From assembly GCF_900142095.1 (NCBI RefSeq), contig NZ_FQZP01000006.1, positions 1 to 64,000 of the forward strand: a DNA stretch of 64,000 nt. Reading direction: 5' to 3'. Position 1 is the first letter of the stretch. Each line of letters begins with the position of its first letter. Both the position numbers and the translations under genes were made by a program. The DNA comes from Thermoclostridium caenicola (GTDB lineage: Bacteria; Bacillota; Clostridia; DSM-8532). This document shows positions 14,632 to 44,438 of the stretch, piece after piece. A model generated the notes under the pieces. The model was not told the origin of the DNA and did not search any database. It saw nothing but the letters and a program-made list of their open reading frames with translations.

Positions 14632-14770
14632 GTGTGCCCAGCATGGGCGCAATCTAACGGGTGAAAGTCCCGAATACGCCCTGGTAGTGGGAAGTGTATA
14701 GCTTAAGACGAGGGTGTCCATTGCGAGGTGGAATCTGAAGGAAGTCGGGTGGCAAACCTCTGGTCTGACG
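14632..14770 (+). mobile_element. 5' remnant of a group II intron
   Basis: The start GTGTGCCCAGCATGGGC and the following GGGTGAAAGTCCC, GTAGTGGGAAGTGTATAGC and CGAGGTGGAATCTGAAGG are hallmarks of the 5' (domain I) part of bacterial group II introns. About 140 bases remain. No reverse transcriptase/maturase frame and no domain V-VI are present before glnS begins on the other strand, so the element is truncated and cannot move on its own. It lies next to the AT-rich frameshifted gene. Confidence 0.75.
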
Positions 14771-14774
14771 TCAG

Positions 14775-16475
14775 TCAGCCATTCCCAGCCTGCTGTTTCG
14801 ATGCGATCTTAGCCCAGGTGTCCTTCAGACCCACGGTCCGGTTGAAGACCAGGTTGCCGGGCTTGCTGTCCTTATTGTCCACGCAGAAATAGCCAATCCT
14901 CAGGAACTGGAACTTTTCCTCGGGCTTCGCATCCTTGAGGCACGGCTCAAGCTTTGCACCCTTGATGACGATCAACGAGTCCGGATTGATGTAATCCTTG
15001 TAGTCGCTGCCGTCCGGAATATCATCCGGGTTTTCCACAGCAAAGAGCTTGTCGTAGAGCCTTACCTCCGCATCGATGGCGTGCTTTGCCGATACCCAAT
15101 GGATGGTTCCTTTCACCTTTCGGCCGTCGGGGGACTCTCCGCCGCGGGAGGCGGGATCATAGACGGCCCGGACCAGGGTAACCTCGCCGTTCTCATCGGT
15201 CTCGTATCCGGTGCATTTGATGAAGTAGGCGTTTTTCAACCTGACTTCGCCGCCGGGTTTCAGCCTGAAATACTTGGGCGGCGGATCGATGGCAAAGTCA
15301 TCGCGCTCGATGTAGATCTCTCTTGAGAAAGGAACCTTCCGGGTTCCCTTTTCAGGCCTTTCAGGATTGTTCTCCACATCGAATTCCTCGACCAGATCTT
15401 CGGGGTAATTCTCAATGACAACCTTGAGCGGCTTTAAGACGGCCATAACCCGATCGGCATTCTTGTTCAGATCCTCACGGACGCAATGCTCCAGAAGTCC
15501 CCAGTCGGCTACGCTGGCGGTCTTGGAAATGCCGTTGAGCTCGATGAAATTGCGGATGGAAGCGGGCGTGAAGCCGCGCCTTCTGAGAGCACGCAGGGTG
15601 GGCATCCTCGGATCGTCCCAACCGTCCACATAGCCCTTTTCCACCAGTTCGCGAAGCTTTCTCTTGCTCATGACGGTATAGTTGATGTTGAGCCTTGCAA
15701 ACTCGTACTGGCGCGGCGGGTTGGGAATTTCCAGCTTTTCGAGGAACCAGTCGTACAGGGGCCGGTGATCCACGTATTCAATGGAGCACAGGGAGTGGGT
15801 GATGCCCTCGATGGCGTCCTGGAGCGGGTGGGCAAAATCATACATGGGGTAGATGCACCATTGGGTTCCCGTGCGGTGATGCGGTTCCTTCTTGATTCGG
15901 TAGATGACAGGATCCCGCATGTTGAGGTTGGGGGAGGCCATATCGATCTTGGCACGCAAGGTTTTTTCCCCGCTTTCAAACTCGCCCTTCCTCATGCGTT
16001 CAAAGAGCTCCAGGTTCTCCTCGATGCTCCTGTTGCGGTATGGGCTTTCCCTGCCGGGCTCGGTGAGGGTGCCGCGATATTCGCGCATCTCCTCTGGTGA
16101 AAGATCGTCAACGTAGGCCAGGCCTTTCTTGATAAGCTGTACGGCGTATTGATAAATCTGCTCGCTGTAGTCGGAGCCGAAATAGACTCTGTCGCCAAAA
16201 TCAAAGCCCATCCAGCGGATATCTTCGATGATGGCGTCCACGTACTCCACGTCTTCCTTTGTGGGGTTGGTGTCGTCAAAGCGCAGATTGCATTTGCCGC
16301 CATACTTCTCGGCCATTCCAAAATCCACGCACATGGCCTTGGTATGACCGATATGCAGATAGCCGTTTGGCTCGGGCGGGAATCGGGTTCGTATTTCCTT
16401 AACTCTGCCGGACTCCAGATCCTTTTCGATGATCTCTTCAATAAAGTTCTTCGATCTGCGTTCCATTTCTTCCAT
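14775..16475 (-). CDS. glnS: Glutaminyl-tRNA synthetase
   Basis: A 566-residue class I aminoacyl-tRNA synthetase. [17 protein letters not shown] carries the HIGH motif at 41-44, and VMSKR at 268-272 is the KMSKS-type loop. The segment [10 protein letters not shown] and the C-terminal anticodon-binding beta barrels match GlnRS rather than GluRS. Many Firmicutes lack GlnRS and make Gln-tRNA by transamidation; some Clostridia have it. Start could be ATG 16475 or ATG 16466. It follows argC-argB on the same strand but is separated from argB by a terminator. Confidence 0.93.
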
Positions 16476-39886: not shown

Positions 39887-41215
39887 ATGGATTTTCTCAT
39901 CCATGACAGGTTCATATTGGGCGTGCTGATAACCTGCTGCACAGCCCTGTGCGGTTGTGCTGCTTCCCTGGTATTGACCGGCAGCTCATCCGCCGGTGCC
40001 AAGCGCGCCTTCCTGTATGTGATGTTTTATGTGCTTGCCCATGAGACCAGTTCGCTGATCGTTTTGCATGCGACATCGCCGGATATGTTCAGACTTCTGG
40101 TTGCCGTCAGGGCCGCCAGCGCCTATCTTCTGGCAACATCCCTGCTGCTTTTCACCGGATATTATACGGACAGACGCTGGCTGAAAGGGCTGGCCCTGGG
40201 CGTGCACCTGGTTTCCGTGGGACAGGTGGTACTCCCGTTTCTGAACAGGCAATGGGCGGAGCGGCTCGTGATGCTGTCCGGGCCTTTTGAAGCGCAATAC
40301 TGGGGTTTGGCCCTTTGGTATGCCCTTGTGCCGGGGACATTCTGCATCATCCTCTCGGTTATCTTCATTCTCCATGCGCATCACCATGGGCGCAAACTGA
40401 CCGTGGTTTCCTTGATCTTTGCGTTTTTGCTGCTGTGCATGGGAGCGCTTTCGATCCTGCAGCTATCCACAAGGGACATGGTCCGGGACAACATGCACCT
40501 GATCATTTTTCTGGGCCTTCTGGCCGCAAAACTGAAGGCCATGCCCTTTCTCAGCAGGGATGCCAAATACATTTCCCGCGCCGATATCCATGACGGGTTT
40601 TCCGAGGCCGTGATCATCTTTGACCGGAGAGGCCGGGTTGTTCATATCCATGACGGACTTAAAACCATCAAACTGTCCGACAGGCTCAGGGATATCCAGG
40701 AAAAGCTGGCGGAGGAAGGGGTGCTGAATGAATCGGGAGCCCTTTCCCAGGGGCGTATTTTGATAGAAGAACAACATCCCGTCCACCTGCAGTATAAGAT
40801 TTCACCCCTTCAGGCGGAAGGAAAAGTGTTGGGAAGGATCATCAACCTGCGCGATGTTACGGAGCTGGTCAATCTCCAGATGGAATTGTCGCAAAAGAAC
40901 AGGCAGTTGGAGTTGGCTTTTTCCAGGAAACAGCGGGCGGCACGGGCTGTGAGGCAACTGGCCGTGGAGAGGGAGCGGGCCAGGATACTGGACCAGGTCA
41001 ATGCCACCGCCAATGCCTATATCAGCAGGGTTCGCCGTGATGTGGCGCAACTTGAGGCTGAAATGGCGACCGGAACGGACTTTCCCACGAAGATCAGGAT
41101 GATGAACGAACAGTTGCTGGAAGTCACCCGGAGCGTCATTGAGGAAATACGGGCCACCGTAAGGAAACTGAACCATGTGCCTGAGGGATGCGAAACCCTT
41201 GAAGATATGGAATAA
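39887..41215 (+). CDS. 7TM sensor protein resembling a histidine kinase but lacking the kinase domain
   Basis: A 442-residue membrane protein. About seven membrane helices (residues 8-215) form a histidine-kinase-type 7TM sensor, followed by a PAS-like domain (about 232-328, AVIIFDRRGRVVHIHDG) and a coiled coil. The dimerisation helix at 363-380 (ERARILDQVNATANAYIS) aligns with ERNSLAKEIHDVLGHSLN of the kinase encoded at 41886, but Asn372 replaces the phosphorylated His. The chain ends before any HATPase domain. The shared layout suggests duplication and decay, or specialisation as a signalling partner. Confidence 0.75.
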   Translation: MDFLIHDRFILGVLITCCTALCGCAASLVLTGSSSAGAKRAFLYVMFYVLAHETSSLIVLHATSPDMFRLLVAVRAASAYLLATSLLLFTGYYTDRRWLKGLALGVHLVSVGQVVLPFLNRQWAERLVMLSGPFEAQYWGLALWYALVPGTFCIILSVIFILHAHHHGRKLTVVSLIFAFLLLCMGALSILQLSTRDMVRDNMHLIIFLGLLAAKLKAMPFLSRDAKYISRADIHDGFSEAVIIFDRRGRVVHIHDGLKTIKLSDRLRDIQEKLAEEGVLNESGALSQGRILIEEQHPVHLQYKISPLQAEGKVLGRIINLRDVTELVNLQMELSQKNRQLELAFSRKQRAARAVRQLAVERERARILDQVNATANAYISRVRRDVAQLEAEMATGTDFPTKIRMMNEQLLEVTRSVIEEIRATVRKLNHVPEGCETLEDME

Positions 41216-41244
41216 TGCTTGCAGAGACAGGAGGCTGGGGCCTT

Positions 41245-41886
41245 ATGATACGCGTCTTGATTGCAGATGACCATGCGCTGCTGACCGACAGCCTGAAAAT
41301 GGTACTGGAAAGCTTTGACGGCTTTCAGGTTGTGGGGATTGCCCATGATGGCTGGCAGGCCTGCGAAATGTGCAAAGAAATCAGGCCGGATGTTGTTTTG
41401 ATGGATATCAGGATGCCGATACTGGATGGCATCAACGCCATCGCCAAAATTAAGGATGTTGATCCCGGCATCAAGGTTATCATTCTTACCTCGCTGGAGG
41501 AAAAAAACCATATCTTCAAAGCCTTTATGAACGGTGCGGATGCGTACCTGATGAAGGATACGCCTCCGGATCGCCTGAAGGTTCTGATACAGTGCGTCCT
41601 GTGGGGGTACCAGGTTTTGGGTGGCGAACTGAAGGAACTCCTCGATTCGGCCTGCAGGGACAGGATACAGGACAGGAAAAGGGATCAGGTTCTGGCGGCC
41701 CTCAAGGAAGAAGACGTCGAGATCATCAAATGTATCAGCGAGGGCAAGAACAATAATGAAATCGCTGAAATCTTCGGATATGCCAACGGAACGGTAAAGA
41801 ACAAGGTAACCCGGCTCCTGGAGATCACCGGAACGGGAAACCGGGCACAGCTGGTCATGTTTGCGCTGAAGCACAACATCATCTGA
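41245..41886 (+). CDS. NarL/LuxR-type response regulator
   Basis: A 213-residue DNA-binding regulator. The receiver domain has Asp8/Asp9 (IADDH), the phosphorylated Asp54 in VLMDIRMP and a conserved Lys in YLMKD. The C-terminal LuxR-type helix-turn-helix (about 150-210) contains CISEGKNNNEIAEIFGYANG and TVKNKVTRLLE. ATG 41245 has AGGAGG ten bases upstream. It is sandwiched between two 7TM sensors; its stop overlaps the next start by one base (TGATG), so it is coupled to the true kinase. Confidence 0.9.
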   Translation: MIRVLIADDHALLTDSLKMVLESFDGFQVVGIAHDGWQACEMCKEIRPDVVLMDIRMPILDGINAIAKIKDVDPGIKVIILTSLEEKNHIFKAFMNGADAYLMKDTPPDRLKVLIQCVLWGYQVLGGELKELLDSACRDRIQDRKRDQVLAALKEEDVEIIKCISEGKNNNEIAEIFGYANGTVKNKVTRLLEITGTGNRAQLVMFALKHNII

Positions 41887-43580
41887 TGCCGGCGCCGGAT
41901 TTTGGACGGGTAGGGGGTGGCATTACGACCACAAACATACTGTTCAACCTCATCAGTATTGCGGTCTTATCGGCCTATCTGGCGTTTATATACCATGCGT
42001 CCATCAAGACCGGACCCATGAAATACTATATAGCCGTCCACTTCTTTGCGTTCATTTCGCTGATGGTGGATTTCCTTGCCCTGCTTGCCCAGGGAACAGG
42101 TGCCCAGCATCTCTTTACCATTCTCTCCTCCTCGGCCGGTATTCTGTGTTCGGTTGCCCTGATGTGCTTCGGCCTTGTCCTTTTGCGGAAAAAGAGCCTG
42201 AACCGGTACTTTCTTATCGCTGTCTATCTGATCCCCACCCTGTCTTTCCTGTTTGCCCTCCTTGCGGAGCAATCCCTGATTCTTGAACAGGCAGCGGGCA
42301 TCCCAAAGCCCGGCACGCTGTACAAGATCCATTCCTGGGTGGAATACCTGTTCCGGGTTTCCGCCTGTGTGCTGCTGGCGGCCACAGTGACAAAAAGGAT
42401 CAGGATCTCGCCTTTTGAAATCTTTTTGGTGGCGGCGTCCATGGTCTCCTTCACGCTCAAAATCATGATATCCCTCCAGCAGCCTGCTTATGTATCGCCC
42501 GTCGGTCCGATCATGGCCCTGATGGTTTTCAGCCTGCTGTTTTTTGGCTCGGCCAAGCTGGGGATGTACCATGTGATGGCGCTGGGCATAAAACGGAGCC
42601 TGGAATTGTACGGTGAAGCCGTATTTATCATGGACAGCAGGGGAAAGGTGGCCTACATGAATCCGGCATGCGAGGGCTTGGAGCATGACACCTTCCAGGC
42701 CGTTTCTGATGTCTGCCGCCTTGAGGCGCAGGAACTCAGGGATTATGCTGAGGAGGAAAGAATCCTGGAGGTTTCGCATAACCACGGTGTATACACGGTC
42801 AGAATGCGCGCAGCTCCATCCCTGCTCCGGAACAGAGCAGGAACCATATGCGTGATACATGATGATACCGCGTTGAAAACCGCCATCAACCACCTGAAGG
42901 AGAAGAATGAGGAACTGGTGATGTTGAACAACAGCATCCGGCTGCTCCAGGACCAGACCAGCCACCTGGCCGCCATCGAGGAAAGGAACAGCCTGGCCAA
43001 AGAGATACACGACGTACTTGGACACTCCCTCAACCTCGCCCTGCACACTCTGGAAAGCAATCGGCTGATCCTGGACACCCAGCCGGAGAAGGCCATGATG
43101 AGGCTCAAGCAGGTCATCGCCGATATCGACAGGGGTATCGGGGAAATCGCGGCGCATGCCGAGCCCAGGGAGAAACAGTCGCCCCTGTGGTCCCTGCTTG
43201 CCGAAATGGCGGATCGCCTGGCCGAGATCGGGGTCAGGATGGACGTAATCCGTTCCAGATACACGGGCGAAATGACCGATGATATGGTAAAAACCATCTA
43301 CAGGATATGCCAGGAGGCCACAACCAATGCCATCAGGCATGGCAAAGCCGACCAGATCACCGTTTCCATCAAGGAAAAAGCAGGCCTGTTGCACATCCAT
43401 ATCATCGATAACGGTAAAGGGTGCGGGAAGATTATCAAGGGCAATGGTCTCAGGGGAATGGAGGAACGCGTCGGAAACCTCGGCGGTTACGTTTCCTTCA
43501 ACAGTTTCGAGGATGGCAACGGATTTATGGTCCACGCCTTCATCCCGCTGGAAAACATGGCGCTCCAAGGCGGCCAATGA
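41886..43580 (+). CDS. Sensor histidine kinase, 7TM-PAS-HisKA_3
   Basis: A 564-residue membrane kinase. Seven helices (about 15-230), a PAS-like domain (AVFIMDSRGKVAYMNP, about 245-330), a coiled coil, then the HisKA_3 helix with His375 in AKEIHDVLGHSL and an HATPase domain with ATTNAIRHGKA (N box), IIDNGKGCG (G1) and NGLRGMEERV (G2). It should phosphorylate the co-encoded LuxR-type regulator. The signal is unknown. A promoter and a hairpin-rich RNA region follow the gene. Confidence 0.9.
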   Translation: MPAPDFGRVGGGITTTNILFNLISIAVLSAYLAFIYHASIKTGPMKYYIAVHFFAFISLMVDFLALLAQGTGAQHLFTILSSSAGILCSVALMCFGLVLLRKKSLNRYFLIAVYLIPTLSFLFALLAEQSLILEQAAGIPKPGTLYKIHSWVEYLFRVSACVLLAATVTKRIRISPFEIFLVAASMVSFTLKIMISLQQPAYVSPVGPIMALMVFSLLFFGSAKLGMYHVMALGIKRSLELYGEAVFIMDSRGKVAYMNPACEGLEHDTFQAVSDVCRLEAQELRDYAEEERILEVSHNHGVYTVRMRAAPSLLRNRAGTICVIHDDTALKTAINHLKEKNEELVMLNNSIRLLQDQTSHLAAIEERNSLAKEIHDVLGHSLNLALHTLESNRLILDTQPEKAMMRLKQVIADIDRGIGEIAAHAEPREKQSPLWSLLAEMADRLAEIGVRMDVIRSRYTGEMTDDMVKTIYRICQEATTNAIRHGKADQITVSIKEKAGLLHIHIIDNGKGCGKIIKGNGLRGMEERVGNLGGYVSFNSFEDGNGFMVHAFIPLENMALQGGQ

Positions 43581-43634
43581 CCGCTAAATGGAGAAAACAG
43601 TGCAAAAAGCACTCGAAAAGATGACCAAAATCAC

Positions 43635-43662
43635 TTGATTGGACTTTTTGATTGGATATAAT
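43635..43662 (+). promoter_or_regulatory. Promoter of the candidate small RNA
   Basis: TTGATT at 43635-43640 and TATAAT at 43657-43662 with 16-base spacing. It lies in the gap after the kinase gene and points to a start near 43670, exactly where the first hairpin begins. No open reading frame follows. Confidence 0.65.
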
Positions 43663-43669
43663 ATGTTCT

Positions 43670-43845
43670 AAGGGTTTATAGAGCTCCGGGTGGTTATTCC
43701 ATATAAACCCTAGATGTCTTTGCCCCCCCCAAAGACTAAAATGTTCTACAAAAGAATAATGGTTCTTGCTTAAGAACCATTATGAGTCCGGAGATAATCT
43801 TCATCTCATAAAAGGCTATGAATGCATGATTCATAGCCTTTTAGT
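43670..43845 (+). ncRNA. Candidate small RNA with a C-rich loop and five hairpins
   Basis: From the predicted start five stems follow in series: 43671-43680 with 43702-43711; GTCTTT with AAAGAC (43716-43736) around GCCCCCCCC; 43756-43767 with 43772-43783 (12 bp, loop GCTT); GAGAT with ATCTC (43791-43807); and a 15-bp terminator stem (43809-43823 with 43829-43843). An eight-C loop exposed on a short stem is a common way for Gram-positive small RNAs to pair with Shine-Dalgarno sequences. No coding frame is present. Family unknown; minus-strand transcription is possible but lacks a visible promoter. Confidence 0.55.
43809..43843. terminator. Bidirectional terminator between the small RNA and the PRTase gene
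   Basis: A 15-bp perfect stem beginning with TAAAAGG and ending CCTTTTA around a five-base loop. It can end the plus-strand RNA and the convergent phosphoribosyltransferase transcript. Confidence 0.8.
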
Positions 43846-43874
43846 CATTCTTTTTGGTATCCGACGGCCGTTTG

Positions 43875-44438
43875 CTATTTTTCGATGGGTTCGCCCTCCG
43901 CATTGAACAGTGGGAGGTATTCGAGGTAGATGATATCTTCCCTGTATTTGGCGTCGCCTTCGGCCAGGATGGCCGCCTTGCCGACCACCGTGCCGCCCGA
44001 CATCTTGACCAGCTTTTCCACGGCAAAAATGGATTCCCCGGTGCTGATGACATCATCAATGATGAGAACCCGTTTGCCTTTCAGGAGCTCGGCATCGTTT
44101 TTGTCGATGTAGAGCGTCTGCTTCCTGGCGGTGGTAATGGACTGGACTTCAACGGTGATCGGATCCTTCATGTAAAGCTTCTGGGCCTTCCGCGCCACGA
44201 GATATTTTTCGGCATTCATCTGGCGGGCCATTTCGTGAATCAGCGGTATTCCCTTGGCCTCGGCTGTTATCATGATATCGTGTTCCGGAATTTTCCGGAT
44301 AAGTTCCCTGGCGCAGGCGGTGGTCAGCTCCACGTCGCCGAGGATCACAAATGCTGCTATCTTGAGATCCTGGCTGATGCTGCAAAGCGGCAGATCCCTT
44401 TCCAGGCCCGCTACCTTAATCCTGTATGTTTCCTTCAT
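43875..44438 (-). CDS. Adenine phosphoribosyltransferase-like protein
   Basis: A 187-residue type I phosphoribosyltransferase. The PRPP-binding loop is RVLIIDDVISTGES (about 122-135), preceded by IMITAEAKGIPLIHEMA and YLVARKAQKLYM. The layout fits the clostridial branch often annotated as adenine phosphoribosyltransferase, which differs from canonical Apt in its N terminus (LPLCSISQDLKIAAFVILGD). Purine salvage is the likely role, but the base is uncertain. It is monocistronic, with a good AGAGGTG site upstream. Confidence 0.78.
   Translation of the reverse strand: MKETYRIKVAGLERDLPLCSISQDLKIAAFVILGDVELTTACARELIRKIPEHDIMITAEAKGIPLIHEMARQMNAEKYLVARKAQKLYMKDPITVEVQSITTARKQTLYIDKNDAELLKGKRVLIIDDVISTGESIFAVEKLVKMSGGTVVGKAAILAEGDAKYREDIIYLEYLPLFNAEGEPIEK

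Follow-up and report, generated by a model that had tools for sequence, protein, structure and literature searches.

The non-coding stretch on the 3′ side of a two-component kinase operon (positions 43635-43845 of the window, that is, of the whole 64,000-nt stretch of DNA analysed) very probably carries a genuine gene for a structured RNA, as judged from its comparison among relatives. The predicted RNA, whose elements and neighbours are listed in Table 1, represents a new family without an Rfam match that is confined so far to one genus (MAGs). The LuxR-type regulator encoded next to it probably controls the RNA gene directly, and we lean towards a reading of the whole in which the neighbouring two-component system has a trans-acting regulatory RNA of ~175 nt as its output.

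Table 1. Elements of the RNA locus and neighbouring genes (positions in the window)
Feature	Position	Strand	Basis or remark
Sensor/membrane protein, operon gene 1	39887..41215	+	ORF; orthologue in the same place in 5/5 genomes; no Pfam match
Response regulator, receiver + LuxR-type (GerE) DNA-binding domain	41215..41886	+	Pfam PF00072, PF00196
Sensor histidine kinase (HisKA_3 + HATPase_c)	41886..43580	+	Pfam PF07730, PF02518
Site 1, operator-like palindrome AGTGC-AAAAA-GCACT (AGTGCAAAAAGCACT)	43599..43613		Centre -63; probable response-regulator site
Site 2, block ATGACCAAAATCAC	43621..43634		Centre -41.5; probable response-regulator site, weaker
-35 element TTGATT	43635..43640	+	Consensus scan and five-genome alignment
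-10 element TATAAT	43657..43662	+	16 nt from the -35 element; TATAATATG invariant in five genomes
Predicted small RNA, ~175 nt	43669..43845	+	Promoter, conserved structure, terminator, genus-wide conservation
Hairpin H1, GGGUUUAUA/UAUAAACCC	43672..43710	+	Arms 17/18 columns invariant, loop 9/22
CUCCGG(GU) in the H1 loop, 5′ half of the proposed pseudoknot	43684..43691	+	Pairs with 43786-43793
Hairpin H2, C-rich loop	43716..43736	+	Arms 12/12 columns invariant
Hairpin H3, AAUGGUUC/GAACCAUU core	43756..43783	+	Core arms 14/16 columns invariant, loop 0/8
GUCCGGAG, 3′ half of the proposed pseudoknot, Shine-Dalgarno-like GGAG	43786..43793	+	UCCGGAG 7/7 invariant, flanks variable
Terminator-like hairpin, 15 pairs	43809..43843	+	Arms 23/24 columns invariant, loop 0/9
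Phosphoribosyltransferase-domain gene, convergent	43875..44438	-	PF00156; downstream neighbour in 5/5 genomes

A small RNA gene had been predicted here from the letters of the DNA alone, and that prediction is supported within the genus, where promoter, stems and synteny are all conserved. The four other genomes of the genus, which in the GTDB contigs are Clostridiaceae MAGs including DTU059, each contain a DNA match to the element (E 1e-26 to 3e-36, 74-77%), and the gene order around it is identical in all five; the response regulator is 78-80% identical within the genus. The genes beyond the element, at window:44767-47312, encode a DUF2680 protein and a GntR/ABC transporter cluster, and most of the genus keeps them in the same order. 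The alignment comprises five sequences, two of which are nearly identical and one of which (G001) was joined from a copy split over two contig ends. The arms of the four hairpins taken together are invariant in 66 of 68 columns, with the H3 core and the terminator counted in, and the pooled loops of H3 and the terminator in none of 17; two linkers are invariant in 3 of 21 and 0 of 5 columns, and hairpin loops and linkers vary in length as well as in sequence. Stems that stay constant while loops are free give the locus the look of a structured RNA. A covariation check of the five sequences found no pairs with double changes, and the stems draw no support from covariation because they are nearly invariant.

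Rfam 15 gives no gathering match in 43560-43900, nor any match there at permissive thresholds, and the best sub-threshold match, to OTKONC, scores 22.5 bits where the cut-off is 141.4. Elsewhere in the window, an Rfam family for group II intron D1-D4 matches positions 14717-14861 just above its cut-off of 32, with a borderline 33.5 bits. The covariance model derived from the five members recovers their main copies at 145-188 bits, and a search with it through 32 genomes of the family and 291 of the class yielded nothing convincing outside the genus, as would be expected of a new family at the level of the genus; the best other match scored 34 bits (among the 291 class genomes), and the weaker matches that were examined consist mostly of the terminator hairpin. 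The original prediction had pointed to stem conservation in relatives and to a covariance search against related Clostridia, and on both counts the stems prove to be conserved within the genus only. The exact pattern of the C-rich hairpin occurs in the GTDB contigs in the four known MAGs of the genus and in seven other matches, of which the three inspected all lack the rest of the element and were discarded. Genus g2 has relatives of the phosphoribosyltransferase at 65-70% identity, but their surroundings yielded no kinase operon and no RNA.

The whole RNA is predicted to fold with -59.7 kcal/mol (z = -6.2; none of 200 shuffles is as stable), and z lies between -3.3 and -7.7 across the five sequences of the genus. 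Because the minus strand folds about equally stably, the orientation of the gene rests on the promoter. Among the hairpins originally described, three and the 15-pair terminator are conserved, and the further small hairpins, at approximately 43741-43757 and 43781-43807, belong to the fold of the window's own sequence and are not kept in relatives. The loop said to present eight C's consists of a G followed by C8 (43722-43730), and a run of C6-C8 is found at this place in all five genomes. The final hairpin would be a terminator of moderate strength, since its U-tract is short (TTTT lies within the stem, and T5 follows only ~11 nt further on); it is possibly bidirectional and shared with the convergent gene.

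Because a promoter consensus scan by itself is unconvincing, performing at the level of chance (2 found versus 1.3 expected), the case for the locus rests on conservation. The promoter that had been proposed, with its predicted transcription start at ~43669, is present and has the form TTGAT(T/C)-16-TATAAT in each of the five genomes. The element could alternatively be the stable 3′ UTR and bidirectional terminator of the kinase operon, yielding at most a processed 3′-UTR RNA, in which case the promoter-like site would be incidental. The operon mRNA should indeed run into the element, because the plus strand has no T-run terminator after the kinase stop (43580) and before the element, and the final hairpin is symmetrical and could serve the convergent gene too. 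However, the TTGAT-16-TATAATATG promoter and the 50 bp upstream of it are better conserved than the kinase gene, whose DNA is 70-73% identical in the genus, and a plain 3′ UTR needs no operator, no promoter and neither the invariant C-loop nor the CUCCGG/UCCGGAG blocks. The 3′-UTR explanation is therefore rather unlikely, and an RNA gene with its own promoter is preferred.

The conserved blocks upstream of this promoter look like two operator sites, 21.5 nt apart, with centres at -63 and -41.5, which are usual positions for an activator. In the five-way alignment, 13 of the 15 columns of site 1 are invariant, and AGTGCN5GCACT without mismatch is confined, among the matches listed, to this locus. 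Site 2 and its flank are invariant in 18 of 21 columns; the block itself, exact or with one mismatch, occurs at this locus only, in all five genomes, and it scores poorly on the site-1 matrix.

The suggestion that control of the RNA is linked to the LuxR-type regulator is strengthened by these operator-like repeats and by the recurrence of their motif in genus g5. An orthologous sensor-regulator-kinase operon, with a regulator 49-50% identical, is present in this sister genus (G014 and G018), and the covariance search did not find the RNA at the operon in either genome. Behind the kinase, G014 contains the tandem sites GTGCAAAAGTCAT, GTGCAAAAACCCC and GTGCAAAAAACAC, and G018 contains ATGCAAAAGTCAC twice together with GTGCAGGAATCAC; these RTGCAAAA-type sites are spaced by 20 and 22 nt in both genomes, as against 21.5 nt in the genus of the window. 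When a symmetrised matrix built from the genus palindromes is tested against shuffles, the best three sites give p = 0.0005 for G014 and 0.012 for G018, values that are somewhat optimistic because the motif was first spotted by eye in the same regions; the p value for the own best site of G018 is 0.14. The simplest reading of the g5 motifs is that they are sites of the co-encoded regulator. Because an operator-like motif recurs beside an orthologous operon that lacks the RNA, the RNA promoter is most likely activated by its LuxR-type neighbour, by way of the two candidate sites.

These tandem RTGCAAAA sites behind the g5 kinase, at L241:4866-5196 and L242:3671-3992 (minus strand), lie before genes for apparently exported proteins. 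In G018 the product of that gene is a surface protein whose domains are of the beta-helix, PKD, lectin-like (LamG) and S-layer (SLH) types. The g5 sites and the exported-protein genes form a probable regulon of the LuxR-type system. One regulator with one type of operator would thus seem to be wired to an RNA here and to an exported protein in the sister genus, an apparent rewiring that is suggested because the same system in g5 apparently faces a cell-surface protein gene. With the RNA gene, a LuxR-type two-component system of uncultured Clostridia gains a probable direct RNA output.

Within the RNA, CUCCGG of the H1 loop and the downstream UCCGGAG are the halves of a probable pseudoknot. In all five sequences, 7-8 pairs can be formed between them. 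The RNA may be real and yet act via this pseudoknot or via the Shine-Dalgarno-like UCCGGAG, by protein or ribosome binding or as an RNA sponge, the C-loop being a part of the fold only. Consistent with such a role, UCCGGAG is invariant amid variable flanks, CUCCGG is retained despite a one-base shift in its position, and the long-range helix appears in the energy-optimal folds of four of the five sequences when the terminator is omitted; on the other hand, invariance is just as strong in the C-loop and its stem, and the length of the complementary helix alone does not exceed that in loop shuffles (p 0.11-0.33). We consider action via the pseudoknot or UCCGGAG unlikely. A two-state RNA, in which UCCGGAG mimics a Shine-Dalgarno sequence and locks the anti-Shine-Dalgarno CUCCGG of the H1 loop until a target or the ribosome binds and frees it, with the C-loop remaining open, is quite improbable. 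The 5′ end can pair with the tail instead in several of the five sequences, and at alignment columns 4 and 137 one pair of this helix changes from A-U to G-C between species; G000 has A-C there.

In agreement with the original description of a stretch without a reading frame, no conserved reading frame was found on either strand in the five-genome alignment. The differences that follow the Shine-Dalgarno-like GGAGGUA fall mostly at third codon positions, as they would if a very short peptide (AUU/AUC/GUU-UUC/UUU-AUA/AUC-UCA-stop) were encoded and the RNA were an mRNA or a dual-function RNA, but this frame comprises only four codons without an ATG, GTG or TTG start, its stop is lost in G004, and no longer frame is conserved. 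With no conserved ORF and no standard start, the peptide was rejected as highly improbable.

The proposal that the RNA acts through its C-loop on ribosome binding sites, for which the loop had been called ideal where these are G-rich, is tentative, and we put its chances a little short of even. It is chemically plausible, 7-8 G's stand at the ribosome binding sites of several genes, and G7 followed by ATG within 2-10 nt occurs 63 times in the five genomes versus 19 times for the reversed pattern; the same abundance, however, is seen in genera without the RNA, which have a similar excess of G7 ribosome binding sites. Because the whole family habitually uses G-runs as Shine-Dalgarno sites, complementarity to the C-loop is weak evidence for a target in this family, and because genera without the RNA are equally rich in G7 sites, a block of translation by the C-loop is argued from the analogy with LhrC and RoxS/RsaE. 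The G-run sites of the family could serve the RNA but did not arise for it.

The gene for an AbrB-type regulator has a G7-G8 ribosome binding site in all five genomes of the genus, and AbrB genes in genera without the RNA have G5-G7. Across the bacterial family, ribosome binding sites of AbrB-family genes are runs of 5-8 G's (L243-L260, L190, L205, L215, L224, L230), and many of its genomes, with the RNA or without it, commonly have G7 sites. RpiB has a G7 site in three genomes of the genus, and also in one genus without the RNA. The gene for a D-2-hydroxyacid dehydrogenase has a G7 site in two genomes, and its GGGGGGGGAAAAGAC is nearly the full complement of the C-hairpin; this leader complementarity is found in G000 and, with one bulge, in G003, and is absent in G004, where the dehydrogenase gene has GGAGGAG, and G001 and G002 are without the gene. 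The segment of the RNA that this leader (GGGGGGGGAAAAGAC-ATG, at L188:276-290 and on the minus strand of L237) complements, apart from one mismatch, is GUCUUUGCCCCCCCC. AbrB, RpiB and the dehydrogenase at first looked striking but were downgraded as specific targets, since the G-runs of AbrB and RpiB are also found in genera without the RNA and the dehydrogenase match is missing from G004, G001 and G002. On the contig of the RNA itself, in two genomes, several genes with G7 sites are located at window:54422, at G000:C6:66114 and 71575, and at G003:C94:1946, 7409 and 16530.

According to the mechanism that we propose, the phosphorylated LuxR-type regulator would bind the two helically phased sites and activate the promoter, whose -35 element is weak. 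The transcript would then fold into H1, the C-loop hairpin H2, H3 and the terminator, with CUCCGG of the H1 loop paired to UCCGGAG. The C6-C8 loop, and possibly the H1 loop too, would pair with G-rich ribosome binding sites of mRNAs, and this pairing would lower translation of the targets. We infer transcription, binding of the regulator, activation rather than repression, the pseudoknot and the target pairing alike.

Both C-rich loops directed at Shine-Dalgarno regions and control by two-component systems are established in Firmicutes (PMC4132741, PMC5419742). The LisRK-dependent LhrC sRNAs of Listeria carry UCCC motifs in their loops, and such motifs are credited with blocking translation by pairing to the Shine-Dalgarno sequence (PMC4132741). 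The RNA of the window resembles LhrC in being an sRNA of a low-GC Gram-positive that is linked to a two-component system, a control that is here predicted, and that has C-rich loop motifs; unlike LhrC, which is present in five copies, it is present once, lies next to the gene of its predicted regulator and has a pure C-run, a proposed pseudoknot and no Rfam relation. LisR is an OmpR-type regulator, of another class than the LuxR-type. RoxS/RsaE, which is induced by the two-component system ResDE, pairs through C-rich regions with G-rich sites of mRNAs (PMC5419742). The present RNA differs from it in matching no Rfam model, in its fold and in its regulator. VR-RNA of Clostridium perfringens is driven by VirR/VirS, and its response regulator requires a pair of boxes in helical phase immediately upstream of the -35 element (PMC2838878). 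The RNA described here is likewise clostridial and has two phased candidate sites upstream of its -35 element, whereas the VirR boxes consist of a different motif in direct repeat and the two RNAs have no known sequence relation. VirR belongs to the LytTR class of regulators.

In proteobacteria, LuxR-type response regulators directly activate genes for small RNAs, namely GacA those of RsmY and RsmZ and RcsB that of RprA; RsmY/Z titrate CsrA via GGA motifs and RprA uses Hfq. Unlike here, the regulator's own gene is not known to be adjacent to these RNA genes. The 6C RNA of Actinobacteria has two hairpin loops of approximately six C's, which the C-loop resembles in length, although the present RNA occurs in another phylum, has one such loop and matches no Rfam model. 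In common with the regulatory RNAs of Firmicutes that bear C-rich loops, it has, at the level of sequence, a promoter and a terminator of its own, no ORF and a conserved C-run in an accessible hairpin loop, and it adds a new family to a kind of RNA that other Gram-positive bacteria are known to possess.
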